The notes beneath the pieces are model-generated. The model did no database searches. It was given only the letters and a program-made list of their open reading frames with translations, and was not told where the DNA came from. 61,550 nucleotides of DNA from Candidatus Brevefilum sp. (GTDB taxonomy: Bacteria > Chloroflexota > Anaerolineae > Anaerolineales > Anaerolineaceae). This document shows, piece by piece, positions 14,436-31,663 of this stretch. The position numbers and the translations under genes were made by a program. The DNA lies in assembly GCA_029210815.1 (NCBI GenBank), contig JARGGB010000009.1:1-61550 (forward strand). Reading direction: 5' to 3'. Every line of letters begins with the position of its first letter. The first letter of the stretch is position 1.

Positions 14436-15593
14436 TTATTTGATGAGGGGTGTTTCAGTACCATATTCTTTCATGGCAGGTTCAAATTCGTCGGAAAGGC
14501 TTTGGCTTTGAAGCCCCATCTCTTTAAGCGAATAATCATGATTACTTGTGAATTGTTTTGCTTTTTCTGTCTCTTCAACCAGTATCTGCCGATATTCCGG
14601 TGTCATTTCAATCCCAAAACGCTCGTAAATATTTTCAATGGCTGCTTTGGGGTTGTCGACCAAATCTTGGAATCGCAGCATTACATATTGGTCTGGCGGT
14701 AAAGTTTTTAAGTACTGGTGGGAATGGATATACCAGTGCTTTGCCTGTTTCCGCATCACATCCTGTGCTGCTTGTGGATAGTCGCCTTCAGGTTCACCAT
14801 AGGTCTTCCAGTGATTTGAGAACATGCTTACCGAAGAAGGGATCACCATCATTGGTGAGCGTACAAGATTGATGAATTTGGCATCAGGGAACTTTTTATG
14901 GAGCGTCTTCACCTTTGGAGAATAGGTGGGGCTTTTTGAAATAAAGCGCTTGCCGTTATTCGCATAGATATGACGCTGAAGGACTTCTTGATAGTAAGCC
15001 ATGTCCTGTTCTTTTTGCACTTCGGGTACTTCCTCGTCATAGTATATATATTTATCAATCAAGTCGGGGAAGGGGAAAAAAGCAAAAAGGTTGTATGTGG
15101 ACCAGGTGTGTAAGAAGATATGTCCGTCCTCTTCAATCTCGTTTAGACCTGTAGGATGCATATAGGAGTATTGCCTTAATGCTTTCTCAAAGCTGTTGAT
15201 GATTTTTCCAATGGGATTGCCGATCAGGCGATTAATTTTCATCAGCCAATGAACGAATTTTCGCTGGATGATTGAAGGTGCTACATAAATTTCCCAGGTT
15301 TTCATCCCGGTCGACCGTTCATCTTTAGCCAGCATGCGATGCAGCAGGGTGGTACCGGACCGGAAATTACCAACAATGAAGATCGGTTTTTCGATATTTT
15401 GTGACTTGACCTGTGGGTAAAAAAGCATGTCAAGACCATACGCCAATCGAATACTGAAATGCCATAATGGATAGAGGAAAAAAATTAACAGGAGTACAAA
15501 AAATCTTTTTGGGGTTAACCGGCCAGGCGTTCCTTCAGCTTTGAAAAAACTGTACCAGATAGTTTTAATATAGAGTTTGAGATTAAGTTTCAT
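14436..15593 (-). CDS. Sulfotransferase-family protein
   Basis: PAPS-dependent sulfotransferase fold (Sulfotransfer_3 type). The 5'-phosphosulfate loop is IFIVGNFRSGTTLLHRML near residue 65, and the 3'-phosphate region is FINLVRSPMMVIPS. Additional motifs KRFISKSPTYSPK and RFQDLVDNPKAAIENIYERFG are typical of the family. The open frame reaches TTG 15683, but TTGACT there looks like a -35 element of this gene, so ATG 15593 (385 aa) is preferred. A short N-terminal hydrophobic stretch may associate it with the membrane. The acceptor is unknown; a glycolipid or surface glycan is possible given the next locus. Confidence 0.82.
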   Translation of the reverse strand: MKLNLKLYIKTIWYSFFKAEGTPGRLTPKRFFVLLLIFFLYPLWHFSIRLAYGLDMLFYPQVKSQNIEKPIFIVGNFRSGTTLLHRMLAKDERSTGMKTWEIYVAPSIIQRKFVHWLMKINRLIGNPIGKIINSFEKALRQYSYMHPTGLNEIEEDGHIFLHTWSTYNLFAFFPFPDLIDKYIYYDEEVPEVQKEQDMAYYQEVLQRHIYANNGKRFISKSPTYSPKVKTLHKKFPDAKFINLVRSPMMVIPSSVSMFSNHWKTYGEPEGDYPQAAQDVMRKQAKHWYIHSHQYLKTLPPDQYVMLRFQDLVDNPKAAIENIYERFGIEMTPEYRQILVEETEKAKQFTSNHDYSLKEMGLQSQSLSDEFEPAMKEYGTETPLIK

Positions 15594-15816
15594 TCGTAAT
15601 TTAATTGTTGTGGTTTGTTTTATCAGGCTAATCTTACCCGATGGGGCGTATTCTTGTATTAATCCTTTATTGGAAACAGTCAATGATTTTTAATAAAGGA
15701 AACCTGCTTTGGTATAATTTATCAAAGCTTGGATTAAGTTGTACTGCGGTTTTTTAATTAAATAATTTATTGCTTCGTTGACCCTTTTGGTGATTAATTA
15801 ACCTATCAATTAAGGT

Positions 15817-15830: not shown

Positions 15831-17633
15831 ATGAAAAATTTGGTGAGAAATTTTTGTATTATTGCCCATGTGGACCACGGCAAGTCTACCCTGGCAGATC
15901 GTATGCTTCAGCTAACCGGTACGATCTCCGATCGCGATATGACCGAACAGGTACTGGACACCATGGACCTGGAGCGTGAAAAGGGCGTCACGATCAAAGC
16001 ATCTGCTGTGCGGATGAATTTCAACGCGGCAGATGGCAAAGCTTATGAATTTAATCTAATTGACACACCCGGTCACGTTGACTTCAATTATGAAGTCAGC
16101 AGGGCACTTGAAGCTTGTGAGGGTGCGGTATTGGTGGTGGATGCTGCCCAGGGGATTGAAGCGCAAACCCTTGCAAATTTATACCTTGCACTTGAAGCAA
16201 ACCTGGTTATTATTCCGGTTATTAACAAGATTGACCTGCCCTCTGCTCAAACCGAAGAAGTTTCGGAGGATATTCACAATTTGCTGGGTACACCAAAGGA
16301 TCAAATTATCCAGATATCAGCGAAACAGGGCACAAATATTCAGCAAGTTCTGCAGGCGATCGTCGATTTCATTCCTCCCCCAAAGGGCAAGGACGATGCA
16401 CCGCTGGAAGCCCTGATTTTTGATTCGCATTACGATTCCTACAAAGGTGTTGTGGCTTATGTGCGCGTTTTTAATGGTTCCATAAAACGCGAAGATCAAT
16501 TATTTATGATGTCCACTAAAGTAAAAACCTCCCCGGTGGAAATCGGAATTTTTGCCCCCAACATGACACCCGTCAAAAACCTCAGCTCAGGTGAAGTGGG
16601 TTATATCGCCACAGGATTGAAAACCGTGTCTGAGTGTCGCGTGGGGGACACAGTAACATATGCTAATAATGGAGTAGAAAAACCTCTGCCCGGTTACAAG
16701 CATGCCAAACCAATGGTCTTCGCTGGCGTTTATCCTACGGATGGTGAAGATTACGCAGATTTACGCGACGCCCTTGAGAAACTGCAGTTAAATGATGCCT
16801 CACTGGAATATCAGCCTGAGACATCAGAGGCATTGAACTTTGGCTTCAGGGTTGGGTTTTTAGGGTTGTTTCATATGGAAATTATCCAGGAGCGGCTCGA
16901 ACGTGAATATGACATGGATGTGGTCTTTACAGCGCCATCCGTTGAGTACGAGATTAAACTTAACAACGGCGAAATGATCACGATCTCTTCCCCGGCACAG
17001 CTTCCAGATGAAAATGAGATTGATCAAATTTTGGAACCCTGGATGGATCTGACAATTTTCACACCCACAGATTATTACGGCGTGGTGATGGAACTGGTTA
17101 CAAAAAAGCGTGGCATCTTTATTTCGCAAGAATATCCATCCCCGAACCGCGTACAGATAGAATTTGAAATTCCGCTCTCCGAGTTGATCATTGATTTTTT
17201 TGACCAGCTTAAATCAGGTACACGCGGCTACGCTTCGATGGATTACCAGTTTATTGAATATCGTCCAGAGAAACTGGTGAAGCTTGAAATTTTGGTCAAC
17301 GGCGAATCGGTAGATGCTCTGACTGCAATTGTCCACAAGGAGGATGCTTATCATAAGGGACAGGCTTTGGTCTCTCGATTAAAAGAGTTGATCCCAAGAC
17401 AGATGTTCACCATTCCAGTCCAGGCATATGCCCAGGGCAGGGTGATTTCACGCGCCAATGTGAAAGCTTTAAGAAAAGATGTCCTTTCTAAATGTTATGG
17501 CGGTGATATTACACGGAAGAAAAAACTGCTCGAAAAGCAGAAAAAAGGCAAACGCCGGATGAAAATGGTGGGGAATGTGGAAATCCCGCAGGAAGCCTTT
17601 ATGGCGATCTTGCGTCTGGATCAGACAAAATGA
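15831..17633 (+). CDS. typA: Translational GTPase TypA/BipA
   Basis: Ribosome-binding GTPase acting in 50S assembly and stress adaptation. G-motifs are clear: [17 protein letters not shown] (P-loop), [11 protein letters not shown] (switch I), DTPGHVDF (G3), NKIDLP (G4). Domains II, III and the BipA-specific C-terminal domain follow to residue 600, with [12 protein letters not shown] and the basic [17 protein letters not shown] tail motif. Length is that of the family. Its stop overlaps the start of the flippase-like gene (ATGA), so expression of the glycan locus may begin here. Confidence 0.97.
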
Positions 17634-18652
17634 GCTCTCAGAAGTCAACCATGCTTAAAAAGATAAGCCGCTGGCTGATTCCGCTTTTGATCAGTATTTT
17701 AGCTTTCTGGCTGGTTTTTCGCACGATTGATTTATCAAAGTTTGTATCAAACCTTAAACGTGTGGGTTTTGAAGCATTGCTTTATGCAACACTGCTGCAC
17801 TTTTTGAGTTTATTTTTCCGAGTTTTTAGCTGGTACATTTTATTGGGCAGGAAAGTCTCATTTAAAGACGCTTTCTTTACAATGAATGCCGGATATTTGT
17901 TGAACAATGTTTTCCCTTTCCGATTGGGTGAGGTAGGGAGAGCCCTGCTTCTGGATAATCCTGAAGGTCCGTCTGCGCTTGAAGCTTTCTCCAGTGTGAT
18001 TGTCGAGCGGGTTTTTGACGTGTTCCTTGCAGCAGTCTTTGTTTTGATCATGCTGCCAAGGGTTCTTGCAGGCGATACCCAACAAACCGTTATTTATATT
18101 GCTTTTTCCGTGGCTGTTCTGGGGACCCTCGCCTTGTATTTGATTGCCAGGTTTCGCAAGCAAATCCTTGCCTGGTTGACTCGCTGGGGAGAAAAAGCTA
18201 CTTTCATAGATCGCTGGGTCAAACCAAAATCTGCTCAAATTTTAGAAGGCTTATCGGTTCTTAGCAATCCAGGCTTATTTTTAATGGCATTTGGCAGCTT
18301 GTTCATCAGCTGGATGCTTGCATTCGTTCAAAATTTTGTTGTTTTTAGAGCACTTTATCCGAATCCCCCTTTCTGGTGGATGATCTTTGTGCTGAGCATC
18401 GGTACCTTTGGGATTGCCCTGCCTTCTGGTCCGGCTGGCCTGGGCGTATTTGAAGGTGCGATGGTGGCAGGATTTACCTTGCTGGGCGTGGATGCAGGGC
18501 TTGGTTTTGCACATGCGATCATTATTCACGCGATGAGCATTGTATACAACAATATCTTCGGTTTAATCGGCTTACATTTAAGAGGCGAAGCCCTGGTTGA
18601 CCTTTACCAGCGTGCAATTCGGCGATCTCCAAAAGCTCAAACTCAAGAATGA
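17630..18652 (+). CDS. Flippase-like integral membrane protein (UPF0104 / LPG synthase TM domain)
   Basis: A 340-aa protein made of about eight membrane helices, of the family shared by the MprF flippase domain and the C-terminal half of archaeal AglD. Conserved pieces are LRVGFEALL-type entry region, [17 protein letters not shown] and [19 protein letters not shown]. In characterised relatives the domain flips lipids or lipid-linked sugars. It is translationally coupled to typA upstream and is 3 bases from the GT4 gene downstream, suggesting transport of a product made by these enzymes (inference). Confidence 0.85.
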
Positions 18653-18655
18653 ACT

Positions 18656-19816
18656 ATGAATATTCTAATAGTTTTAACATATTACAATCCCTATAAATCT
18701 GGTCTGACTATATATGCTGAGCGGCAAGCCCAGGCACTCGCTGCTTTGGGACATGACGTGACCGTTTTGACCTCGCAATTTGATCCGGACTTACCCCTGA
18801 ACGAACTGGCGCAAGGTGTCAACATTATTCGTTTGCCGATTGCGTTTCGGCTGTCAAAGGGCGTTATCATGCCCGGGATTTTTTCCACTGCCTGGAAATT
18901 GATTGGCGAATCAGATCTTGTAAACTTACACCTGCCGCAGGGCGATGCTGCGCTTGTTGGTATATTGGCAAAAATCAGAAATAAGCTACTGGTGTCAACA
19001 TATCATTGTGATATAAAAATGCCAGCAGGTTTAATCAATAAACTTGCGGGTTGGGGCGCTGTACTTTCCAACCATATCTCAGCAAGCTTGTCGGATGCCC
19101 TTGTTCAAAACACACGTGATTTTTCAGAAAATTCTAAATTCCTCAAAAGGTATTTGAATAAAGTGACGGTTATCCAGCCGCCGATCGTGGTTGTCCCGGT
19201 ATCTGAAGAAGAAATCGCTCAATTTGTCGAAAAATTTGAGATTGACTCATCCCGCAAAATCATTGGTATGGTTGCAAGGTTAGCCAGCGAAAAAGGGGTT
19301 GAATACCTGGTGGACGCGGTTCCTGAAGTGCTAATGCATGTTGATAATGCACAGGTTATATTTGTTGGCAATTACCAGAATGTGATTGGTGAACAAGCCT
19401 ACAAGGCAAAGATTTTACCGATGATTGAAAATCTCGGAGAGCGCTGGAAGTTCCTGGGGATAATCTCAGAGACTGAAAAGGCAGCATTCTTTCAACTTTG
19501 TGACGTACTTGTCTTGCCTTCTATTAACAGCACCGAGTCTTTTGGGATGGTGCAGGTCGAGGGGATGACCTGCGGGACACCTGTGGTAGCAACGGATTTA
19601 CCCGGCGTACGGCAGCCTGTGCTTTCTTCAGGTATGGGGAAGATTGTCCCTGTCAAAGATTCACATGCCCTGGCAGAAGGGATCCTTGATGTTTTGAATT
19701 CATCAGATCGATATGACGGTGAAAAGTTGACTGCATTGAAAGAGCATTTTTCTCCTGAAACAGTCGCAAAAGAATATCAAACCTTGTATCAAGAATTGAT
19801 GAGGTCTGATGGATAA
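18656..19816 (+). CDS. Glycosyltransferase family 4 protein
   Basis: GT-B fold glycosyltransferase of 386 aa. The N-terminal donor/acceptor half starts NILIVLTYYNPYKSGLTIYAE, and the nucleotide-sugar half has IIGMVARLASEKGVEYLVDA and the ExFGxxxxE-type retaining motif in STESFGMVQVEGMTCGTPVVA. It most likely adds a hexose to a lipid-linked or cell-surface acceptor on the cytoplasmic side. It overlaps the next methyltransferase gene by 8 bases. Donor sugar cannot be read from sequence, though GDP-mannose from the 4.2-kb gene is a candidate. Confidence 0.9.
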   Translation: MNILIVLTYYNPYKSGLTIYAERQAQALAALGHDVTVLTSQFDPDLPLNELAQGVNIIRLPIAFRLSKGVIMPGIFSTAWKLIGESDLVNLHLPQGDAALVGILAKIRNKLLVSTYHCDIKMPAGLINKLAGWGAVLSNHISASLSDALVQNTRDFSENSKFLKRYLNKVTVIQPPIVVVPVSEEEIAQFVEKFEIDSSRKIIGMVARLASEKGVEYLVDAVPEVLMHVDNAQVIFVGNYQNVIGEQAYKAKILPMIENLGERWKFLGIISETEKAAFFQLCDVLVLPSINSTESFGMVQVEGMTCGTPVVATDLPGVRQPVLSSGMGKIVPVKDSHALAEGILDVLNSSDRYDGEKLTALKEHFSPETVAKEYQTLYQELMRSDG

Positions 19817-20606
19817 GCAGCAGCTGGATGACATTCTTTGGCGGCATCTCTCCAGCCTCCCATACTTCCGCGGTTTTTTGCGTGCTGTTGAAGACCGTTT
19901 TTACAAGGAGATTGACTTGCCAGCGCCGGTATTTGATCTGGGCTCAGGTGATGGTCATTTTGCATCGGTCGCATTTGAAGGAAAATTAGATGTAGGCCTG
20001 GACCCCTGGGTTGGACCGACCCTTGAAGCACGCGGGCGAGACACCTATCACTTGCTTGTTTTGGGTGAAGGTGCGCACATTCCCTTTCCAGATAGCTATT
20101 TTGGCTCTGTGACCAGCACTTCTGTGCTTGAGCACATTCCTGACATTGAACCTGTTTTGGCTGAGGCAGCAAGGATTTTAAAGCCTGGCGGTAAATTTGT
20201 TTTTTGTGTGCCAAATCATCGTTTCCCTGAATTGCTTTGGGGCAGAAGGTTTCTTGATAAATTAGGCTTCAACCGCATGGCAGAGGCTTACAGTCGTTTC
20301 TTTAATAAAATTGCCCGTCATGCTCACACTGATTCCCCGTCCGTGTGGCAAGCCCGTCTTGAGGAGGTTGGCTTTGAGCTTGTGGATACCTGGGATTATT
20401 TTCCACCCGATGCCCTGACGATATTGGAATGGGGGCATCCATTGAGCTTGCCGTCGCTATTATCAAAGAAGCTCTTTGGACGCTGGGTATTGTTCCCAAA
20501 ACGGTGGAACTTGGCGATCCCCTGGCATTGGACCAGGAAATACCTCGACGACCCACGGTCAGAACAAGGGGTGTGTTCGTTTTTTATCGCACGGAGAAAG
20601 CCATGA
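19809..20606 (+). CDS. Class I SAM-dependent methyltransferase
   Basis: A 265-aa protein with the Rossmann SAM motif VFDLGSGDGHFASVAFEG near residue 40, motif TSTSVLEHIPDIEPVLAEAARILKPGG and a C-terminal cap. This is the Methyltransf_11 type often found beside glycosyltransferases, where it methylates sugars or lipid carriers. It overlaps the GT4 gene before it and the FkbM gene after it (ATGA), so the three are coupled. The substrate is not evident. Confidence 0.85.
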   Translation: MDKQQLDDILWRHLSSLPYFRGFLRAVEDRFYKEIDLPAPVFDLGSGDGHFASVAFEGKLDVGLDPWVGPTLEARGRDTYHLLVLGEGAHIPFPDSYFGSVTSTSVLEHIPDIEPVLAEAARILKPGGKFVFCVPNHRFPELLWGRRFLDKLGFNRMAEAYSRFFNKIARHAHTDSPSVWQARLEEVGFELVDTWDYFPPDALTILEWGHPLSLPSLLSKKLFGRWVLFPKRWNLAIPWHWTRKYLDDPRSEQGVCSFFIARRKP

Positions 20607-21403
20607 GACTGCTGAGAAAATTGTCTTACTATGCAAGTTCCATTTTCAGGATGGCATTTGGCTTTAAAAACTTTTTTTCACTGATCCCCTTTTTTCTGAA
20701 TCGTGAAAGGGTTGAACAAACTGAAGTTGTTTTACGAAAAAGCGGCGTGCGCCTGGTTGCCAGGGGCGCAATGGATATTTGGGCGATCAAGGAAACCTTT
20801 CTGGATGCATTTTATACACGTTATGGTGTAGCGATCGAGAATGGTTGGACGGTTGTGGATATTGGCGCAGGGATTGGGGATTTCAGTATTTTTGTAGCGC
20901 ATTCGAATCCACAAACGAAGGTTTATGCCTTTGAGCCATTTCCTGAATCCTATCATTTGCTGGAAAGAAACATCGTATTGAATGGCATTGAAAATGTTTT
21001 TACCTATCAGGCAGCGATATGGAATCAGGCTGGGATTTTGCATCTGGATAACGTCAGCGGTGAACCGCTGCAAATAATCAGCAAAGAAATGCACCCCGCC
21101 ATAAACGAAAAAAATGTGATAAAGGTCAGGGCATTGCCGCTGTCACAGGTTTTTGATGCGCATGGGATAGAAAAGCTAAACTTGTTGAAACTTGATTGTG
21201 AGGGGGCAGAATACGAAATCCTCTCAGGTGCTTTTCCTGAAGTGTTCAAAAAAATTGAGAGGATCATTATGGAATATCATGATATTGATGGTCACCATCA
21301 CGACCATCTGGTATCACTCCTCGAGCGGCAAGGCTACAAAGTTCATTGTCAGGATAATTTTGTCCATGAGGATATTGGCTACCTCTATGCTGAACACGGG
21401 TAA
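20603..21403 (+). CDS. FkbM-family methyltransferase
   Basis: A 266-aa SAM methyltransferase of the FkbM type, with VVDIGAGIGDFSIFVAHSNP, VYAFEPFPESYHLLERNI and LLKLDCEGAEYEIL, the three landmarks of the family. FkbM-like enzymes O-methylate sugars or polyketides. Although the open frame extends to 20429, that part lies inside the previous gene; the ATG at 20603 overlaps the preceding TGA as ATGA and has GGAG upstream. The 93 bases after it separate it from the first GT-C gene. Confidence 0.87.
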   Translation: MRLLRKLSYYASSIFRMAFGFKNFFSLIPFFLNRERVEQTEVVLRKSGVRLVARGAMDIWAIKETFLDAFYTRYGVAIENGWTVVDIGAGIGDFSIFVAHSNPQTKVYAFEPFPESYHLLERNIVLNGIENVFTYQAAIWNQAGILHLDNVSGEPLQIISKEMHPAINEKNVIKVRALPLSQVFDAHGIEKLNLLKLDCEGAEYEILSGAFPEVFKKIERIIMEYHDIDGHHHDHLVSLLERQGYKVHCQDNFVHEDIGYLYAEHG

Positions 21404-21496
21404 ATATCGCAGCAGGTTGTCAGCAGGGCAAGCCTGAAGTATCATTTCCAAATAAATTATTATTTTAGAAGTGTTCAATGTAATGCAGTTTTCACC

Positions 21497-23638
21497 ATGC
21501 CGGGAAATCTTATGAACCATCAACATGAACCGGAAAATCAAGATCAAGACAGCGTTTGGGATTATTTTATTGAAAAAATAAAATTCTGGACGCATGATCC
21601 GGTTGAAAAAGAAAAAATAGAAACTCCAGGACCAATAACAAACAAACCAGCTTTTCCATGGTTGAGCCTGGTGTCTTTGATGCTTGGATTAATGGCTCAA
21701 CTAACATTTGAACCTTCGCCTGGACGAACGCCATGGCCCGGGATTATATTGTATTTAGCGGCAGGGGGATGTTTGCTGGCATCCATTTTACGTCGAGAAT
21801 GGCGATTACCCGATCTCATACCTGACCAGGATGAGCCGATGAGCACAGCCTTCAGGCTTGATTTTTTCTTGATTGGCCTTCTTCTGGCAATTCTTGCATT
21901 CGTTTTATTTGGCAATGGTAGCTTTGGCTTGCTGAACACATTTTTGTGGCTGCTTTCGATCGTTTTTATTTTCCTTTCTTTTGGGAAAATGATTAAAAAG
22001 GAAGGTCAGGCGCGTAAAGAAATTCTGAGCTGGATCAAAGCGGAGAATTGGCGCATCTGCATCTCCCGCTGGACGATCATTGTCCTGGGGGTGATCGCGA
22101 TTATCCTGTTCTTCAATTTTTATCGCCTTGATTCTGTTCCACCGGAGATGGTGTCAGACCAGGCAGAAAAATTACTGGATATCAATGATATTCTCAATGG
22201 GAGCAGAGCGGTTTATTTCCCGCGAAATACAGGCAGAGAGCCGATACACTTTTACCTGACGGCTTTGTTTATGGCGGTCTTCAACCTGGAAGTTTCATTT
22301 TTGAATCTGAAAATCGTCGCTGTCTTTGCGAATTTGCTAACGCTTTTCTTCATTTATTTACTCGGCAAAGAGATAGGAAATAAATGGGTGGGTTTAGGGG
22401 CGGCATTATTTGCAGGGATGGCTTATTGGCCTCTTTTGTTCACTAGATTAGCACTGCGTATTCCTTATTATCCCCTGTTTGTTGCACCGGTTATGTATTT
22501 TATGATTCGGGGTTTGCGCCGGCAAGATGTAATGGATATTTTACTAACTGGGCTGTTCCTTGGATTGGGTTTGTACGGGTATACCCCATTCAGAATTGTA
22601 CCGATCTTTGTTGTGCTGGGTACGATTATTTATCTTGTCCATAAACCCGCTGAGAACAAGCGATTACAAGCAATTTTCGCTTTAGCTCTGATTACACTGG
22701 TTTCACTGGTGGTGTTTGTACCTTTATTACGTTACTGGCTGGCGAACCCGGATCTGTTTGCATATCGCGCTTTCTCAAGGCTGACAGGCATGGAGGCAGG
22801 ATTTCAAAAAGCACCTGCATTGATTTTTTTGGAGAATTTTTGGAAAGCAAGTATCATGTTCTTTTGGGATAACGGCGTGATCTGGGCGCATTCTATTCCT
22901 GGAAGGCCAGCACTTGAGATTGTCTCCGGCGCATTGTATTTTTCGGGAATTATTGGTCTGCTGGTCCGTTACATCCGCAAACGCCGGTGGGTTGATTTAT
23001 TCTTGCTGGTTTCAATCCCTATGATGATGATGCCTTCTATTTTATCCCTGGCATACCCGGGGGAGAACCCAAGCTTGAACCGAACAGCGGGTGCTGTGGT
23101 GCCGGTTTTTGTTGTTATCGGATTATCCCTGGAAACTTTTATTCGCACATTTCGTGCGCGATTTTCGGGGTTGCTTGCAAAATTTGCGCCTGCTGCTATC
23201 CTTGGGATATTGGTCTTGTGGTCTGGCTTGAATAATTACGATCTTGTCTTTAACCAGTACTACCAGATCTACAGGGCATCCAGCTGGAATACCTCTGAGA
23301 TTGGCGATGCTGCCAGATTCTTCATCGAATCCATAGGTTCTCCGGAGACCACTTACCTCGTTGGGTACCCCCATTGGGTGGATTCGCGATTGGTGGCGAT
23401 CAATGCAGGGCAGGCTGGCAGGGACTTTGCAATATTTCCGGAGCAAATTCCCGCAACACAGAATGACCCTCGTGCAAAGATGTTTTTTGTGAACATGTAC
23501 GATACAGAAAACATTGAATTACTCGCAGAAACTTATCCTTGGGGTGCTTTATGGAAACACGACTCGGACGTTGAGAATAAGGATTTCATGATCTTTTTTG
23601 TGCCGCCAATGCAAGGAACAGGAGCCAATGACAATTAA
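21497..23638 (+). CDS. GT-C type glycosyltransferase, family 39-like (ArnT/PMT-like)
   Basis: Polytopic protein of 713 aa with roughly 12 helices. After a cytoplasmic head, the first luminal loop carries FNFYRLDSVPPEMVSDQAEK, the acidic DxE-like motif area of polyprenyl-phosphate-sugar GT-C enzymes, followed by the GREPIHFYLTAL segment typical of this family. The C-terminal part is soluble (SWNTSEIGDAARFFIESIG). It most likely transfers a sugar from a polyprenyl-phosphate donor outside the membrane. ATG 21512 is an alternative start. It overlaps the next gene. Confidence 0.8.
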   Translation: MPGNLMNHQHEPENQDQDSVWDYFIEKIKFWTHDPVEKEKIETPGPITNKPAFPWLSLVSLMLGLMAQLTFEPSPGRTPWPGIILYLAAGGCLLASILRREWRLPDLIPDQDEPMSTAFRLDFFLIGLLLAILAFVLFGNGSFGLLNTFLWLLSIVFIFLSFGKMIKKEGQARKEILSWIKAENWRICISRWTIIVLGVIAIILFFNFYRLDSVPPEMVSDQAEKLLDINDILNGSRAVYFPRNTGREPIHFYLTALFMAVFNLEVSFLNLKIVAVFANLLTLFFIYLLGKEIGNKWVGLGAALFAGMAYWPLLFTRLALRIPYYPLFVAPVMYFMIRGLRRQDVMDILLTGLFLGLGLYGYTPFRIVPIFVVLGTIIYLVHKPAENKRLQAIFALALITLVSLVVFVPLLRYWLANPDLFAYRAFSRLTGMEAGFQKAPALIFLENFWKASIMFFWDNGVIWAHSIPGRPALEIVSGALYFSGIIGLLVRYIRKRRWVDLFLLVSIPMMMMPSILSLAYPGENPSLNRTAGAVVPVFVVIGLSLETFIRTFRARFSGLLAKFAPAAILGILVLWSGLNNYDLVFNQYYQIYRASSWNTSEIGDAARFFIESIGSPETTYLVGYPHWVDSRLVAINAGQAGRDFAIFPEQIPATQNDPRAKMFFVNMYDTENIELLAETYPWGALWKHDSDVENKDFMIFFVPPMQGTGANDN

Positions 23639-26600
23639 TCGTCAAAAATCGGCTCGGAATAAAGCGCTGCAATGGGGCAATATCTTTATCCTGGTTGCCT
23701 TGCTTATGACACTTGCTGGAGGGGCTTATTTACGCCTGGTTGGTGTAGATTGGGATGAAAACCAGCACATGCACCCGGATGAGCGGTTTCTAAGTTTGGT
23801 GCAATCTGCAATTTCACCGGTCAGCAAGGCTTCAGAATATTTCAACACGGAAACATCCAGCCTGAACCCGGTAAATCGTGGGCATACCTTCTTTGTTTAT
23901 GGGACATTGCCAATTTTTATCATCCGGTACATTGGGGAAGCCCTGGGAAAAGTAGATTACCATGCAATTACGATTGTTGGTCGTCATGTCTCTGCAATAT
24001 TTGATGTGCTGACGATTTTTCTGGTGTTTGCTATCGGGAAAAAATTATACAACCGGTGGGTGGGCTTGCTCGGTGCTGTGTTTTATGCCGCTGCAGTACT
24101 GCCAATACAACTCTCCCATTATATGACGGTGGACACGATCACCAATACATTCACATTTCTGGCAATTTATGCAGGTGTTTGGGCGCTTAAACGTCAATCT
24201 GTTTTGGAACGCAAACATCCTATTGGTGCAGAGGTTCAGGCTGATGTTGACTCAGATGATGGTGGGGATGTTCGTAAAGAGGAAGGATCTAAAAGCATTG
24301 GTCTGCTCATCAAGGATTTAGCGCCTTACATTTTATTTGGCGTTGCCCTGGGTGCAGCGACAGCTTCAAAGATCAACGCTGTTGTGGTGGCGATGGTCTT
24401 ACCCTTGGTTGAAGCAATCCGTTACTTTAAAATGGAACCTGGTGAGCGGGACAGGGAAATTCTCCCGATTATTCGCAACCTTGCACTGGCAGCGGTTCTG
24501 AGTTTCGTTGTCTTTCGCATTGGACAGCCCTACGCATTTAATGGACCAGGTTTTTTCAATTTTGGCATCAATGAGAACTGGTGGCTGAGCATTCAGAATT
24601 TACGATCTCAAGCTTCAGGGCAAGTGGATTTTCCACCGGCGCTGCAATGGGCGCGGCGGCCAATCACATTTTCATGGGAGAATATGAATGCCTGGGGTCT
24701 AGGTTGGCCTTTGGGAATTCTTGCTTCTTTAGCTTTCCTGGGGATGGGATGGGCAATACTTCGAAAACGGGATTGGACCACGCATCTGCCCCTATGGGTT
24801 TTCACAGGTTTGTACTTTACCTGGCAGTCCTTTTCATGGGTGCGATCCATGCGTTACCAGGTCTTGATTTATCCATCCCTTGCATTATTTGCTGGATGGG
24901 GTCTGGTTGAGCTTTTCTCCGTAAAGAAAAGCATTAAGCTCGGTTCGATAAGGATCAAACCGAAAATTCTTCGAGCAGCGGCAATCATCGTGACAATATT
25001 TTTCCTTGTGAGCACCGCCAGCTGGGCGTTTGCTTTTTCTCGCATTTATACACGGCCGCATACGCGTGTTGCTGCCAGCCGCTGGATTTATCAAAATATT
25101 CCTGGTGCATTGACACTGGAGTTCGAAACAGGAGCCGGGGATTATCAGCAGCCCTTGCCTTACCGCGCAGGGGACATCTTTAGCCCGGGCGAAAGCTTTC
25201 GGATACCATTTTACGCAGATGCAGATGGCAGCCTTCACAGCCTGAGCTTCCCACATATTTTGGATCAATCGCAGATTCCTGAGCAGAAGACTCTATTACT
25301 AACGGTTGTTTCTGCTGATGACTCTGGGGAAGTGCTGGCAAGCGCTCGCATCCAGGATGGCTTCGGGGCGACGGACAGTGATTGGCGCGGCGCATCTTAC
25401 GAATTTGTTTTAGATCGTCCAATAACACTGGCTGAAGGGGATCTTTATTATTTTTCATTGGACGAGCTTGAAGGCGAAGCGACTTTTCTATTGAATGGTT
25501 CACCATCAATGATCATCGTGACCCTGGATGGACAAACCATAAAAAGCCCCTTACCCCGTATTCAACAAGGTGTTCGCAAGGACAACCCCTATACCATGAA
25601 TGTTCAGCTTGTCCAGGATGGCCAAATAACTGCTGTCACCACACCTTATTTGGTTGACCAATCCGGAAAAACGGGCGAAAAAACGCTGAACCTCAACCTG
25701 ACGCTTGTCGATCAGGGTGGTGTTTCAGGATCATCTGTCCTCCAATCTGCATTTGAGCCAGGGGATGATTCACGTGGAAAAGCTTACACTTTTGAATTGG
25801 ATCAACCGCTTGATGCAAAAGAAGGACAAACACTATCGGTTACCCTTACTACGGATGATGAGGGTGTACGCCTGGTTCCCCATGCACCAGCGCCGGTGCA
25901 CGAAAGCAGCTGGGATGACGCGGTCCCTTACCCCGTTGACGGCTTCAGCCCCTACAGCGAAAGCGGCGGCATCTATCGCGGTGATTTGAATTTTGAGATG
26001 TATTGGACAGATGACCAGCTTAAACTTGAGAGATTTGAGACTAATCTTGACCTGGCAGACTACATCTTCATTACCTCCAGCCGCCAATGGGGAACTACAA
26101 CACGGGTGCCTGAAAGGTATTTATTGACGACAGCCTATTACCGCAACCTTTTAGGCTGTCCGCAGGAAGAAGCCGTTGAATGGTGTTATTCTGTTGCGGA
26201 GCCCGGTATGTTCGAAGGGTCACTTGGCTTTGAGCTGATTCAGACCTTTACATCTCATCCCAAAATTGGACTCCTGGAAATTAATACACAATTTGCTGAA
26301 GAAGCTTTCACAGTTTATGATCACCCGAAGGTTCTAATTTTCAAGAAATCAACCGACTATGACTCTATCCACATGCGAGAGGTACTGCGTTCCGTAGATT
26401 TGAGCAAGGTGGTCTATTTTACGCCTGGGGAAGCGGCTAATTATAAAGGACCTGATCCTGAAGGCATTTACGAACCTCGATTTAACCTGATGCTGCCCGA
26501 AGACCGCCTTGAAAGTCAGAGAGAAGGGGGCACCTGGTCAGCATTATTTGATCGAGATCGGTTGATCAACTTATCACAATTCCTGGCAAGTGCAGCTTTT

Positions 26601-29027
26601 TACTGTCTGGTAAGCTTCCTGGGTTTGCTTGCATACCCAATCATCCGAATGGCTTTGCCGGGTTTGGCTGATAGGGGATACCCCTTATCCAAGCTGGCTG
26701 GATTATTGATCCTGGCATTTTCGGTTTGGATTCTGGGTTCATTAGGTGTGCCCTTCTCTGTAACAACGATTGTGTTTGTCTTGTTAGGAATGATCCTCAT
26801 CTCCTTGCTCTTCATCTTGATGCAAAGGCGAATGCTTTGGCGTGAATTGAAGGAAAATTGGCGATATTTCTTTATTGTTGAAATGCTTGCATTGATTGCC
26901 TTTGTCTTTTTCATTCTGGTGCGCCTGGGTAATCCGGATTTATGGCATCCGTTCAAGGGTGGCGAGAAGCCCATGGACTTTTCTTACCTGAACGCTGTGC
27001 TCAAAAGCACAAGCTTTCCGCCTTATGATCCCTGGTTTGCTGGGGGGTATATCAATTATTATTATTTTGGTTTTGTGATCCTTGGGGTTCCAATTAAATT
27101 ATTGGGGATCGTGCCCGCAGTTGCTTATAACATCGTCCTCCCAATCTGGTACAGTATTCTGATTTTAGGCGCTTTTTCTGTTGGATGGAATCTCTTTAGA
27201 GGCATTCCAACATTAAGCGCTTTATCGGGTGGTGAAAAGGATAAGAAAAAGTTCTTCCCGACAGCGTTTTGGGTGGGTTTGGGTTCTGCAATCCTGCTGG
27301 CTTTGTTAGGGAATTTGGGCACAATTGACTTGATCATTACCGGTTTCCAGCGGATTGCTTCGGGTGGTGCACTTGTGGACGAAGCGGGTTTTGGTCAGCG
27401 GGTTAGCTGGGCTTTCCAGGGATTTTTCCAGTTCTTGCAAGGGACACCCATGCCCTTCTACCCGGGCGATTGGTACTGGTTCCCCAGCAGGGTCATCCCG
27501 GGCGATCCCATAACGGAATTCCCGTATTTTACATTTATTTACGGCGATCTGCATGCACACCTGATTGCATTTCCAATTACCCTATTTGTGATCAGTTGGA
27601 GCCTTTCAGTGGTGTTGAGCAAGGGATGCTGGGGTGAAGCTGACGGGAAATTCAAATGGGTAGGGCGTGCTATAGGGTTCATCCTTGGTGCAATTTTGAT
27701 TGGCGCTTTAAGACCAACCAATACCTGGGATTTCTATACCTATATTGTCCTGGCTTCCCTGGCATTACTTTACAGCGTTTTTAAGAATTACCAGCCAAGG
27801 TTGAAGCTAACATTTAAGAGGGCGGGATTTACGGAAAAGGCTGTTGTTGCCCTGGGGGCTGTTCTCTTGCTGGTTGGGATGGCATTATTGTTCTATCAGC
27901 CTTTTGCATACTGGTTTGGACAGGGTTATTCACAAATTGAATTCTGGCAGGGAGATCGAACCCCGCTGAAGTCGTATTTCATCCATTGGGGATTATTCCT
28001 GTTTATCATCATCAGCTGGATGGCCTGGGAAAGCTACCATTGGATGAAGACCACACCACGTTCAGCATTAGCTCGTCTTGAACCTTATAAACCATGGTTG
28101 CTATCGGGATTGATCTCGCTGGTAATATTAATGCTTATTTTCCTTGTGTCCGGTGTGGTTATCGGCTTGGTGGCTGTTCCGATAGGCTTATGGGCTGTTA
28201 TATTGATGCTTCGACCGGGACATTCGGATGGTATGCGCTTTTTGTTGTTCTTGATTGGGACTGCTGTCACACTGACCCTGGTTGTTGAATTGATCTATCT
28301 TCCGGGTGATATTGGGCGGATGAATACGGTCTTCAAATTCTATTTGCAAGCATGGGTGATGTTTGCCCTATCAGCAGGTGTGTGTTTGGGGTGGGTTGTA
28401 AAATCTCTGCGTTATTGGCGTGAGCACCTGGCATTTTTGTGGCAAGCGATGCTGTATCTGCTGCTGGCAGGGGCGGCTTTGTTCACCGTGATGGGGACCA
28501 TGGACAAAATTCAGGACCGAATGGCATTGGATGCGCCGCATACTTTAGACGGTATGTCATACATGCAGTATGCGACATATTATGACCTGGGTGCCGAAAT
28601 GATTTTAAGTGAAGATTACCAGGCGATCCGCTGGATGCAAGAAAACATCCAGGGGTCACCGGTGATCCTTGAGGGGCAGGCTTACGAATATCGCTGGGGA
28701 AATCGATACACGATCTACACAGGCTTGCCAGGGGTTGTCGGCTGGAACTGGCATCAACGGCAGCAGCGGGCGATTTTGAAAAGCAATATTGTGCAAGAAC
28801 GTGTCGATTCAGTCAATGCCTTTTACCTGGCTGAGGATATTGATGATGCCGTCGAGTTCATCAATAAATATGATGTCAAATATATCGTTGTGGGTCAATT
28901 GGAAAAAATCTTTTACCCGGGTCCAGGCCTGGATAAATTTGACGCTTATGAAGGGCAGGTGTGGCAAAACGTTTATCAAGGTGGGGAGACAACCATTTAT
29001 CAAGTGCTGGAGCAGCCTGCAAATTAA
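23628..29027 (+). CDS. Giant membrane protein: GT39-like half fused to Chlor_Arch_YYY (DUF2298) half
   Basis: A 1,799-aa polytopic protein. The first part (about residues 1-480) resembles a GT-C glycosyltransferase, with the acidic first-loop motif DWDENQHMHPDERFL near residue 40. A soluble beta-rich segment without recognised motif spans about 490-950. The second membrane part has WHPFKGGEKPMDFSYLNAVL and the diagnostic GGYINYYYFGFVILG (about residue 1140), the motif that names the family found in Chloroflexota and methanogenic archaea. It ends with the soluble tail (QAIRWMQENIQGSP). The ATG overlaps the previous stop and has AGGAG; the GTG at 23598 is not needed. Function of the YYY family is undetermined; glycan assembly is inferred. 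Confidence 0.85.
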   Translation: MTINRQKSARNKALQWGNIFILVALLMTLAGGAYLRLVGVDWDENQHMHPDERFLSLVQSAISPVSKASEYFNTETSSLNPVNRGHTFFVYGTLPIFIIRYIGEALGKVDYHAITIVGRHVSAIFDVLTIFLVFAIGKKLYNRWVGLLGAVFYAAAVLPIQLSHYMTVDTITNTFTFLAIYAGVWALKRQSVLERKHPIGAEVQADVDSDDGGDVRKEEGSKSIGLLIKDLAPYILFGVALGAATASKINAVVVAMVLPLVEAIRYFKMEPGERDREILPIIRNLALAAVLSFVVFRIGQPYAFNGPGFFNFGINENWWLSIQNLRSQASGQVDFPPALQWARRPITFSWENMNAWGLGWPLGILASLAFLGMGWAILRKRDWTTHLPLWVFTGLYFTWQSFSWVRSMRYQVLIYPSLALFAGWGLVELFSVKKSIKLGSIRIKPKILRAAAIIVTIFFLVSTASWAFAFSRIYTRPHTRVAASRWIYQNIPGALTLEFETGAGDYQQPLPYRAGDIFSPGESFRIPFYADADGSLHSLSFPHILDQSQIPEQKTLLLTVVSADDSGEVLASARIQDGFGATDSDWRGASYEFVLDRPITLAEGDLYYFSLDELEGEATFLLNGSPSMIIVTLDGQTIKSPLPRIQQGVRKDNPYTMNVQLVQDGQITAVTTPYLVDQSGKTGEKTLNLNLTLVDQGGVSGSSVLQSAFEPGDDSRGKAYTFELDQPLDAKEGQTLSVTLTTDDEGVRLVPHAPAPVHESSWDDAVPYPVDGFSPYSESGGIYRGDLNFEMYWTDDQLKLERFETNLDLADYIFITSSRQWGTTTRVPERYLLTTAYYRNLLGCPQEEAVEWCYSVAEPGMFEGSLGFELIQTFTSHPKIGLLEINTQFAEEAFTVYDHPKVLIFKKSTDYDSIHMREVLRSVDLSKVVYFTPGEAANYKGPDPEGIYEPRFNLMLPEDRLESQREGGTWSALFDRDRLINLSQFLASAAFYCLVSFLGLLAYPIIRMALPGLADRGYPLSKLAGLLILAFSVWILGSLGVPFSVTTIVFVLLGMILISLLFILMQRRMLWRELKENWRYFFIVEMLALIAFVFFILVRLGNPDLWHPFKGGEKPMDFSYLNAVLKSTSFPPYDPWFAGGYINYYYFGFVILGVPIKLLGIVPAVAYNIVLPIWYSILILGAFSVGWNLFRGIPTLSALSGGEKDKKKFFPTAFWVGLGSAILLALLGNLGTIDLIITGFQRIASGGALVDEAGFGQRVSWAFQGFFQFLQGTPMPFYPGDWYWFPSRVIPGDPITEFPYFTFIYGDLHAHLIAFPITLFVISWSLSVVLSKGCWGEADGKFKWVGRAIGFILGAILIGALRPTNTWDFYTYIVLASLALLYSVFKNYQPRLKLTFKRAGFTEKAVVALGAVLLLVGMALLFYQPFAYWFGQGYSQIEFWQGDRTPLKSYFIHWGLFLFIIISWMAWESYHWMKTTPRSALARLEPYKPWLLSGLISLVILMLIFLVSGVVIGLVAVPIGLWAVILMLRPGHSDGMRFLLFLIGTAVTLTLVVELIYLPGDIGRMNTVFKFYLQAWVMFALSAGVCLGWVVKSLRYWREHLAFLWQAMLYLLLAGAALFTVMGTMDKIQDRMALDAPHTLDGMSYMQYATYYDLGAEMILSEDYQAIRWMQENIQGSPVILEGQAYEYRWGNRYTIYTGLPGVVGWNWHQRQQRAILKSNIVQERVDSVNAFYLAEDIDDAVEFINKYDVKYIVVGQLEKIFYPGPGLDKFDAYEGQVWQNVYQGGETTIYQVLEQPAN

Positions 29028-29229
29028 TTTTGATTTTGATATTGGAACGGGCTGACCTTCAATATTATTTAAAACTGGAAATTAAGACGCCTGAATGGTT
29101 TTGGCAAGTATAATAGCAAGTGACATTATTAAGGATGTCGGTGATTGAGATATTTGTTTGCACTTCATGCGGATGCGTTTTACTGGCGAAGACCATTATT
29201 GAGGATTTATTATAAATGTTTATGCTGAC

Positions 29230-30951
29230 ATGGCATCATGGAAAAACTTTATGAAGTTTGAAAACAAACCCATTTTTCATAAACTGCTATTATCAGGCGC
29301 TTATATAACTGCCATCGCGCTCAGGTTGGTCCGATTGGGGGCACTTCCTTTAACCGATATGGAAGCAAGTATTGCCTTGCAAGCGCTGGCTGTCGGGCAA
29401 AAAACGGATACGATTTTTAGCGGACACATGACCTACGTCGGTTTGACTGGACTTGATTTTTTCCTGTTCCATGCAGGCAATTTTTTAGCAAGGTTTTGGC
29501 CGGCGCTGATTGGTGCGCTGATCGTTTTTATCCCTTTTCTTTTTCGAAATTACATTGGCACTTTGCCTGCAAGCATCCTGTCTTTCATCCTTGCTTTATC
29601 GCCTGAGATGGTTGGGCTTTCTCGTTTGATCGGCTCACCGATGATTGCCTTTGTGCTGCTGCTTTTGGCACTGGGATTGATCAATCAAAAGAAACCAATA
29701 CTTTCTGGTGTATCGTTTGCTCTGGCTTTAATGGGGGGTTCGGGATTTTGGACAGGCATTGTTTTGATCGGGCTCAGTTTATTAACTGCCAAACTGGTTC
29801 TGCAAATACCTTTTGAGGGATTTTTTGGCGAATTCTTCAAATACAAAGAAGATCGAGTAAAGTTCCTGATTGCCTTTGGATTGACGCTGTTGCTGGTTGC
29901 CATGGGGTTTTCATTGGCACCCGAGGGATTAAGCGGGGTGTTTTCAGGTGCTGTTGATTTTGTGCGTGGATTTGGAATGCCTTACACCAAACCCTTTGTC
30001 TTGAAACCCCTTGCGCTTGCGGCATACAGCCTGCCTGCGGTGATCTTTGGGCTTTGGGGCGGCATACGGGGCTTCGTCAAGCGCAGTAAACTTGATATAT
30101 TCCTGTTGATCACAGCGCTGGCCAGCTTTATTTATCTGCTCCTTTACCCCAACGCAAGCCCTGCGGATATCATTTGGGTAACTTTACCGCTCTGGACTTT
30201 GTCTGCCAGGGTGATTGCTGCTGTTTGGCGCTGGCCTGAGGAGAATAAATTTGTGATGGTCATCACTTCTGTGATGGTTGTGGTTGTGTTTGCATTCACC
30301 CTTTTGGCCATGCGGTCACTGGTGAGTCCAAGCATCAACACGGAGGCGCGCTTGACGACATTCATCGCACTTGCCGGTGGGCTGGTCTTAATGATTGCCC
30401 TGGTCTTGCTTGTGACTTATGGATGGTCAGAGGATGTGGCGTTACCCGGATTATTGATGGGGCTTTCTGCCGTGGTTCTTCTGGGGATGCTTTCACTTAC
30501 GGTCAGAACGACCAGCATCAGCCTGGAAACAACCCATGAATTATGGCACCCTAGAGAATCCAGTTTATCAACACAGTGGTTAAAGGTTTCTCTTGATCGC
30601 GTTTTGGAATGGAATAAAAGAACGACAATGCCCGTTGAAATCGCTGTGGCTGACTTCGATACGCCTGGGATGCGCTGGGTCTTGCGGGATTACGAGAATG
30701 TGGCTTTTGTGCCTTATGTGCCGCCCTCGTCGCAGCCAGGCATTTTGATCTCAGACACACTGACCCAACCTGAAATTTCTAACTCATATCGCGGACAGGA
30801 CCTGATCTGGTCACAGACCCCAGATTGGCAGGGGATGACGCCTTTTCAGTATCTTAGCTGGTTTATGACCCGGGAAGTCCCAGAAACAGCCAAGGAAATT
30901 ATCTTCTGGGTAAGAACAGATTTAATGCCTGACGAACAATTTTCACAATAA
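29230..30951 (+). CDS. Polytopic membrane protein, GT39/Agl23-like
   Basis: A 573-aa protein with about 12 helices and a periplasmic/extracellular soluble tail. The first loop reads LRLVRLGALPLTDMEASIALQALAVG, a D-x-E motif in the place where GT-C enzymes bind the polyprenyl-phosphate sugar. It is similar in style to the 'flippase activity-associated' family that accompanies YYY proteins. It stands 202 bases after the YYY gene, in the same direction, and probably belongs to the same system. Which glycan it serves is unknown. Confidence 0.7.
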   Translation: MASWKNFMKFENKPIFHKLLLSGAYITAIALRLVRLGALPLTDMEASIALQALAVGQKTDTIFSGHMTYVGLTGLDFFLFHAGNFLARFWPALIGALIVFIPFLFRNYIGTLPASILSFILALSPEMVGLSRLIGSPMIAFVLLLLALGLINQKKPILSGVSFALALMGGSGFWTGIVLIGLSLLTAKLVLQIPFEGFFGEFFKYKEDRVKFLIAFGLTLLLVAMGFSLAPEGLSGVFSGAVDFVRGFGMPYTKPFVLKPLALAAYSLPAVIFGLWGGIRGFVKRSKLDIFLLITALASFIYLLLYPNASPADIIWVTLPLWTLSARVIAAVWRWPEENKFVMVITSVMVVVVFAFTLLAMRSLVSPSINTEARLTTFIALAGGLVLMIALVLLVTYGWSEDVALPGLLMGLSAVVLLGMLSLTVRTTSISLETTHELWHPRESSLSTQWLKVSLDRVLEWNKRTTMPVEIAVADFDTPGMRWVLRDYENVAFVPYVPPSSQPGILISDTLTQPEISNSYRGQDLIWSQTPDWQGMTPFQYLSWFMTREVPETAKEIIFWVRTDLMPDEQFSQ

Positions 30952-30982: not shown

Positions 30983-31663
30983 ATGGGATTACCAAAAACA
31001 ATTGCAATTGACGGCACAGCGGGATCGGGGAAATCAACCCTGGGATCTTTACTGGCAGACGCCCTTGGCTATTTATATCTGGATACAGGTGTGATGTACC
31101 GAGCAGTCACCCTGGCAGTGATCAAGGCGGGATTAAGTCTCGATGAAGAATCTGCCATCAGTGAGCTTGCACGGAAAGTTCGCATCGATGTTCGACCGCC
31201 CTCGATCGATGATGGTCGCGATGTAGATGTGCTGCTTGATGAAGAAGATGTCACCTGGGAAATTCGCCAGGATGCGGTAAATGCCTGGGTCTCACCCGTT
31301 TCTACACAACGTGCGGTCCGGGATGCTATGACTGAGCAGCAGCGCCGGATTGCCCAGAAGAACAATGTCGTAATGGTTGGCAGGGACATCGGTACCGTCG
31401 TAATTCCGGATGCAGACTTAAAAATTTACCTTGATGCATCTGTAGAGGTCAGAGCACATCGACGATACCAGGAAATGCTCGAAAGGGGGGAGGCGCCTGA
31501 TTTCAACGCGGTGTTAGCGTCCTTGAAAAACCGTGACAAGATTGATTCAAATCGTGAAATTGCACCCTTAAAACCTGCTGAGGATGCTCATATCATCGAT
31601 TCAGATAATTTGAATATTTGCCAGGTCTTCAAAACAGCAATGGCGATGATTTATCGTGTGTGA
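30983..31663 (+). CDS. cmk: Cytidylate kinase
   Basis: Phosphorylates CMP/dCMP with ATP in pyrimidine nucleotide supply. The P-loop IAIDGTAGSGKSTLGSLLA is at the N-terminus, followed by YLDTGVMYRAVTLA, VMVGRDIGTVVIPDADLKIYL and RYQEMLERGE, all family markers. Length 226 aa is normal. No clear Shine-Dalgarno is present before ATG 30983. Its end overlaps the GTG start of the truncated C69 peptidase by 8 bases. Confidence 0.96.
   Translation: MGLPKTIAIDGTAGSGKSTLGSLLADALGYLYLDTGVMYRAVTLAVIKAGLSLDEESAISELARKVRIDVRPPSIDDGRDVDVLLDEEDVTWEIRQDAVNAWVSPVSTQRAVRDAMTEQQRRIAQKNNVVMVGRDIGTVVIPDADLKIYLDASVEVRAHRRYQEMLERGEAPDFNAVLASLKNRDKIDSNREIAPLKPAEDAHIIDSDNLNICQVFKTAMAMIYRV

Follow-up and report, generated by a model that had tools for sequence, protein, structure and literature searches.

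The assembly of glycans on carrier lipids by membrane enzymes of the GT-C fold is a known kind of system, and the described families closest to the locus considered here are the oligosaccharyltransferases AglB/STT3 (PF02516), the PMT_2/ArnT-type and Pmt4 enzymes, TIGR03663/Agl23, and DUF2298/Chlor_Arch_YYY (PF10060, TIGR03662), the last of which carries no functional assignment in the Pfam and NCBIfam libraries. Fused and double-copy YYY forms, and a link between TIGR03662 and TIGR03663, were reportedly noted by the TIGRFAM authors. In NCBIfam, TIGR03663 is named flippase activity-associated protein Agl23, and it is on this name that the family is equated with the Agl23 of H. hispanica, which moved Man5GlcNAc2-PP-dolichol/phytanol in liposomes after purification (PMC11182771). 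Chloroflexota are described as a phylum without lipopolysaccharide genes and with surface layers of unknown make-up (PMC13319060), and no described route of surface-glycan assembly for this phylum was found in the open-licence literature. Among the papers listed by the search, none was found to mention TIGR03662, TIGR03663 or Chlor_Arch_YYY, and DUF2298 is named in PMC8756737 (appendix table) and PMC12828279. The locus at 17630-30951 of a 61,550-nucleotide stretch of Candidatus Brevefilum sp. (contig JARGGB010000009.1, hereafter the window, one of the 99 contigs of a 2.66 Mb assembly) combines members or relatives of these families. Specifically, it codes for a flippase-like protein (FLIP), a GT4 glycosyltransferase, a class I and an FkbM-family methyltransferase, a PMT_2-type protein (PMT), a long YYY fusion that ends in a DUF2298 module, and a third GT-C protein (GTC3) (Table 1).

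These genes are well supported as members of a shared pathway, and the locus is read here, with moderate confidence, as an assembly line for a methylated, carrier-linked surface glycan in Chloroflexota. Judged against the described systems, it belongs to a known kind, that of GT-C carrier-lipid glycan assembly, and what is unusual is the tandem fusion and the STT3-like module. The neighbouring lepA and cmk flank the pathway and are not thought to be part of it. The module, which some two thirds of the Chloroflexota genomes sampled possess, is a concrete candidate for surface-glycan assembly, and it suggests a fold and putative catalytic residues for a large family of unassigned function that also occurs in archaea.

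The first line of evidence is gene order. A contig scan for the DUF2298 half yielded 29 loci, 21 of which span lepA to cmk, and in all 21 the genes that occur follow a single order on a single strand, even where identity falls to about 40%; the scattering among relatives that the original prediction had envisaged as a counter-case was not seen. GT4, PMT and GTC3 are present in every spanning locus, FLIP and the long YYY fusion in 20 each, and the methyltransferase in 19, while FkbM (10 of 21) is missing from about half of the relatives, and an SDR sugar epimerase/dehydratase and a second, single YYY gene occur in 9 each. Since lepA, cmk and further unrelated genes hold their places in the same order, the spanning loci alone could reflect synteny, that is, genes adjacent by inheritance and without a common pathway, and regions outside this order were hence examined. 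Among 58 further regions around strong YYY matches in other genomes, 57 lie outside the order of the window; they were hand-picked from the strongest YYY rows among the matches listed and come with no random-region background rate for GTC3. They contain lepA once and cmk never, and yet GTC3/TIGR03663-like genes occur in 34 of them, with all 54 such open reading frames (ORFs) oriented like YYY; at least two YYY ORFs are found in 39, flippase-like genes in 16 and SDR genes in 2. The recurrence of GTC3-like and multiple YYY genes without the lepA/cmk flanks indicates that their link is more than inherited synteny. So the portable core consists of the YYY fusion, the single YYY, the TIGR03663-like and the flippase-like genes, and GT4, the methyltransferase and PMT are more local.

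The second line of evidence is co-occurrence across 301 Chloroflexota genomes and 14 control genomes. TIGR03662 is matched in 212 of the 301 (193 over the cut-off) and TIGR03663 in 248 (191 over the cut-off). When strong matches are considered, by E-value limits chosen after the lists were seen and among related genomes that are not independent, 190 genomes hold both families, 8 only YYY, 2 only TIGR03663, and 101 neither. Together with the conserved order, these counts support the original proposal that the set resembles a module to build and flip a methylated glycan on a carrier. The controls over the cut-off are identical for both families, namely Haloferax volcanii and Methanosarcina acetivorans; as these are one halophile and one methanogen, and as the families are so frequent in Chloroflexota, the claim that they are shared mainly with methanogenic archaea was not borne out, the archaea covered being those among the 14 controls. 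In 40 genomes, picked because both families were seen on one contig, the median distance between YYY and TIGR03663 is 3.4 kb and the largest 6.9 kb; unlinked cases also exist, with the two genes 1.5 Mb apart in G118 and on different contigs in G033 and G117. The phylum statistics ignore relatedness, which leaves some room for synteny; conversely, the YYY-YYY-GTC3 core is found again, between different neighbours, in other orders and classes and the co-occurrence with TIGR03663 holds over many families, so that mere inherited adjacency is hardly credible as an explanation of the locus.

The 1,799-aa YYY protein probably comprises two GT-C modules in tandem, according to structure predictions and fold searches, and the original count of three GT-C type membrane proteins thus holds for the proteins and not for the modules, of which there would be four. 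The fusion is widespread, with 74 ORFs of the YYYN-YYYC type in 89 loci scanned. The N-terminal module (AlphaFold2 pLDDT 92.9 for 23628-26591, from a 71-row alignment) is closest by Z to AglB 3waj (30.1) and STT3 (29.0), and matches ArnT (27.7) and Pmt4 (27.5) almost as well. At the profile level, it aligns to STT3 by hhalign with 97.9% and E 5.3e-13 over 354 columns, and a sequence search of the PDB returned Pmt1 (E 1.1e-5) and STT3A (E 5.5e-4). Its D51 and E52 are kept in 70 of 71 rows, and the model places beta-rich (beta-sandwich) inserts between the membrane part and an alpha/beta end domain. PMT_2 matches this module with 37.5 bits in the genome search, does not appear when the full-length protein is scanned with Pfam, and was left unused. 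The separate PMT protein passes the cut-off of PF13231 and has S220, D221, A223, E224, R247 and E248 invariant in 16 rows; its alignment matched no PDB chain at E 0.1. As to the variety of such chains, six related genomes of family f23 have frames of about 2,500-2,900 aa, and a 2,498-aa ORF (L073) reads as an N-terminal GT-C module joined to two DUF2298 modules, up to three GT-C modules per chain, and adjoins a single DUF2298 gene.

The C-terminal module is a full DUF2298 member that passes the cut-offs of both PF10060 and TIGR03662. Its AlphaFold2 model (pLDDT 96.0, pTM 0.95, from a 134-row alignment) has by Z the STT3 chain 8agb_A as best match (19.9, with 477 residues aligned at 6.9 Å), followed by AglB 3waj (17.0), ALG12 (16.5), Pmt4 (15.8), ArnT (15.3) and AftA (14.3), and the end domain separately matches AglB-S2 3vu0_A (Z 11.8, 2.3 Å over 118 residues). 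The predicted GT-C fold is firm, and a kinship with STT3 is likely, not proven. Like AglB/STT3, the module combines the predicted GT-C fold and C-terminal alpha/beta domain with an acid in the first external loop, an (F/Y)-D-P motif, a D-x-H ahead of a transmembrane helix and an arginine in a later loop, if the residues are matched correctly; unlike them, it has an insert of about 60 residues, sits fused behind another GT-C module and has no PF02516 match. In the 134 rows, E134 is conserved in 133, D155 in 133, D328 in 129, H330 in 134, H332 in 133, D389 in 129, E575 in 128 and R585 in 134, and position 138, placed like E134 in the first external loop, is acidic (D/E) in 130; on this conservation, the acidic, histidine and arginine residues may form the active site. 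Specifically, GDLHAH stands just ahead of a transmembrane helix, as does the G-F-x-D-H-H of STT3, chloroflexotal STT3 rows carry D-H-H where DUF2298 has D-x-H, and the P-P-Y-D-P-W of DUF2298 recalls the invariant F-D-P in the first external loop of STT3.

Several results pull away from a kinship with STT3. Foldseek ranks the C-mannosyltransferase DPY19 (7zlh) first and STT3B second, and the arabinosyltransferase AftA (8if8_C) reaches the highest TM-scores (0.40/0.52), so that the resemblance to STT3 is at least partly a general GT-C likeness. When its profile is compared with that of seven STT3 proteins from Chloroflexota, which resemble AglB (E 1.2e-114 to 3waj), DUF2298 aligns by its end domain only (47.9%), other GT-C sets stay below 2%, and a PDB sequence search with the DUF2298 profile gave nothing meaningful. 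The equivalence of D328-x-H330 (129 of 134 rows) with AglB comes from sequence pattern and topology, without superposition. In an alternative reading, the YYY modules extend a chain in the manner of ALG9/ALG12, ArnT or the arabinosyltransferases of mycobacteria: every GT-C would add one sugar from a polyprenyl-phosphate-sugar to a polysaccharide growing outside the membrane, with no transfer en bloc. The matches of ALG12, Pmt4, ArnT and AftA to DUF2298 agree with it, as does the presence of many GT-C modules in one locus, which fits one module per linkage, and, in the rumen Pseudobutyrivibrio plasmid pNP95, a DUF2298 gene (L162 14896-17151, +) lies among polysaccharide genes that include an O-antigen ligase, though on the opposite strand. 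Conversely, STT3 (Z 16 to 19.9) and the AglB end domain top the Z list and the D-x-H before the transmembrane helix resembles AglB, and the extender alternative is thus possible but doubtful. The plasmid search for other DUF2298 hosts gave two records, the second of which, from Halarchaeum, matches over 44% of the query, at the record end, and shows no glycan cluster among its neighbours.

A standard N-glycosylating role would require motifs that DUF2298 does not have. W[WA]DYG is found in none of the 134 rows, as compared with 6 of the 7 chloroflexotal STT3 rows (WWDYG-like; the seventh is truncated by its contig), and no acidic column occurs at the expected place of TIXE, which argues that DUF2298 is not a standard N-glycosylating enzyme and makes an N-X-S/T protein acceptor unlikely. 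The original statement that no oligosaccharyltransferase is recognisable stands by sequence, as PF02516 has no match in the whole source genome at E 0.001, and fails by predicted fold, since DUF2298 is nearest to STT3/AglB by Z. Across the 301 genomes, PF02516 gives some match in 86, passes its cut-off in 36 and exceeds 60 bits, a limit of our own choice for a clear STT3, in 7, of which one has a strong YYY (p 0.007, kinship ignored). As proof that YYY replaced STT3, this absence was judged weak, because 86 genomes have some match, 36 pass the cut-off and two archaeal controls hold both YYY and PF02516. Similarly, no O-antigen ligase is found in the locus, as originally stated, and elsewhere in the genome there is one marginal PF04932 match (36.7 bits), which was not seen again at E 0.001 when that ORF was scanned with Pfam.

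GTC3 appears to be a small paralogue of TIGR03663/Agl23. It scores below the curated cut-off of the family and aligns by hhalign to the large TIGR03663 proteins with 100% and E 1.8e-39 over 550 columns, a similarity that is partly built in, as a single model served to collect both the large and the small set (FLIP, as the control, reached 0.7%); a PDB sequence search with its profile gave nothing meaningful. It shares the neighbourhood and genomes of TIGR03663 and differs by its score and by the loss of DE and HGP. Specifically, the large proteins have D before E in 31 of 31 and HGP in 29 of 31, whereas in the close relatives of GTC3 the E is kept in 28 of 28, the preceding residue is never D (0 of 28) and HGP is absent (0 of 20). 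A D stands two residues before E in 18 of these 28, so that the acid may have shifted by sequence position. The lack of DE and HGP makes a transport or scaffold role likelier than catalysis for GTC3. The large TIGR03663 protein of the same genome is encoded on another contig (C15; L072 2644-6195, +), has 1,183 aa and ends in NHL/beta-propeller repeats.

The proposed pathway would start in the cytoplasm, where GT4, in some relatives together with the SDR epimerase/dehydratase, would add a sugar to a polyprenyl-linked acceptor and one or two methyltransferases would methylate or cap the glycan. FLIP and the Agl23-like GTC3 may then help the carrier-linked sugar over the membrane. Outside, as fold and motifs suggest, PMT and the N-terminal YYY module would add sugars from polyprenyl-phosphate donors, and the DUF2298 module would pass the saccharide on from its carrier, either to the final acceptor or to the growing chain. 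The assembly line is weakened as a unit by the regions outside the conserved order, in which PMT lies near YYY in 11 of 57, GT4 in 7 and the methyltransferase in 7, and none of six markers is found in 15; moreover, a polyprenyl-phosphate-sugar synthase was not identified, no search having been aimed at one, and 24 small GTC3-like proteins from a broader collection include 8 in which D still precedes E and 4 that retain HGP.

As to the acceptor, the glycan may be O-linked to protein or may form a free surface polysaccharide. In a study of the Litorilinea aerophila archaellin, extra density at Thr66 and Thr145 was read by its authors as O-glycosylation, with the machinery unnamed (PMC12488501). 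A bolder proposal, rather unlikely as a whole, would derive DUF2298 from STT3 as a transferase independent of the sequon. In Chloroflexota, where clear STT3 is rare, it would have taken charge of glycosylating surface proteins, perhaps by O-linkage, while fused to a second GT-C enzyme and set beside a TIGR03663 paralogue turned from enzyme to carrier-lipid translocator. Alternatively, the product could be a wall polysaccharide tied to peptidoglycan by LytR-CpsA-Psr (LCP) enzymes, as are arabinogalactan and teichoic acids. LCP genes are common (256 of 301 genomes), and the second YYY gene of the source genome, a single DUF2298 gene on contig C44 (L071 2643-10279), has within about 5 kb an LCP gene and an L,D-transpeptidase with LysM (opposite strand). 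A link of the product to peptidoglycan was tested through MraY and not supported: strong MraY (limit 1e-50, our own choice) and strong YYY occur together in 122 genomes, with YYY only in 76, MraY only in 73 and neither in 30 (p 0.13), and 14 YYY genomes, in a set that is partly incomplete, lack any MraY-family match at E 1e-15. This lack of association between MraY and YYY speaks against a product bound strictly to peptidoglycan, and the wall polysaccharide is quite improbable. The MraY-weak genomes (76 of the 198 with strong YYY) are often large.

Table 1. Features of the locus and its flanks, with positions in the window.
Feature	Position	Strand	Evidence or remark
lepA (EF4), upstream neighbour	15831..17633	+	TIGR01393 949.9 bits (cut-off 533.9); overlaps FLIP by 4
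FLIP, LPG_synthase_TM/flippase-like membrane protein, 340 aa	17630..18652	+	PF03706 161.7 bits; TIGR00374 91.9 bits (cut-off 43.2)
GT4 glycosyltransferase, 386 aa	18656..19816	+	PF00534 107.6 bits; PF13692; PF13439
Class I SAM methyltransferase, 265 aa	19809..20606	+	PF08241 55.5 bits
FkbM-family methyltransferase	20603..21403 (longest ORF from 20429)	+	PF05050 73.2 bits; TIGR01444 113.1 bits
PMT, PMT_2-type GT-C membrane protein, 713 aa	21497..23638	+	PF13231 39.8 bits (cut-off 26.1)
YYY fusion (1,799 aa), predicted N-terminal GT-C module	23628..26564	+	DE motif at 23778-23783; AlphaFold2 model
YYY fusion, predicted C-terminal GT-C module = DUF2298/TIGR03662	26565..29027	+	PF10060 373.2 bits (cut-off 27.8); TIGR03662 511.6 bits (cut-off 300.25)
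DUF2298 motif, E134	26964-26966		
DUF2298 motif, D138	26976-26978		
DUF2298 motif, GDLHAH D-x-H	27546-27554		
DUF2298 motif, R585	28317-28319		
GTC3, putative small TIGR03663/Agl23 paralogue, 573 aa	29230..30951	+	TIGR03663 40.8 bits (cut-off 126.25); E45 at 29362-29364 kept
cmk (CMP kinase), downstream neighbour	30983..31663	+	TIGR00017 231.7 bits

All ORFs of the original prediction were recovered where it had placed them, and the upstream gene that it had called typA is lepA, as the TypA model reaches 226.8 bits against a cut-off of 757.3. The intergenic distances are -4 (lepA/FLIP), +3 (FLIP/GT4), -8 (GT4/methyltransferase), +93 (FkbM/PMT), +202 (YYY/GTC3) and +31 (GTC3/cmk), and agree with the predicted gaps of 93 bases behind FkbM and 202 bases before GTC3. 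Mechanical ORF starts at 20429 for FkbM and 23598 for YYY would give overlaps of 178 and 41; the likelier starts are 20603 (ATGA over the methyltransferase stop) and 23628 (ATG, also the start originally proposed), with overlaps of 4 and 11. A scan for promoters and terminators was uninformative, with counts near the shuffle means (35 versus 25.9, sd 5.0, and 22 versus 19.5). Divergent from lepA, a sulfotransferase (PF13469, 114.3 bits) lies at 14436-15683 (-); it was considered as a member of the system and rejected, as 14 of the 61 genomes from the order have a match, and in only three does it stand beside lepA, namely its own genome and two of its genus, among the genomes checked. Downstream, many Anaerolineales relatives (L045, L046, L054 and others) have an ORF of 435-464 aa between cmk and a histidine kinase that is missing in the window, and the copy in L046 is a C69-type peptidase (PF03577, 40.3 bits). 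Lastly, the topoisomerase I at 5313-7634 (+) carries an N-terminal DUF5679 (PF18930, residues 4-43) ahead of its Toprim domain.

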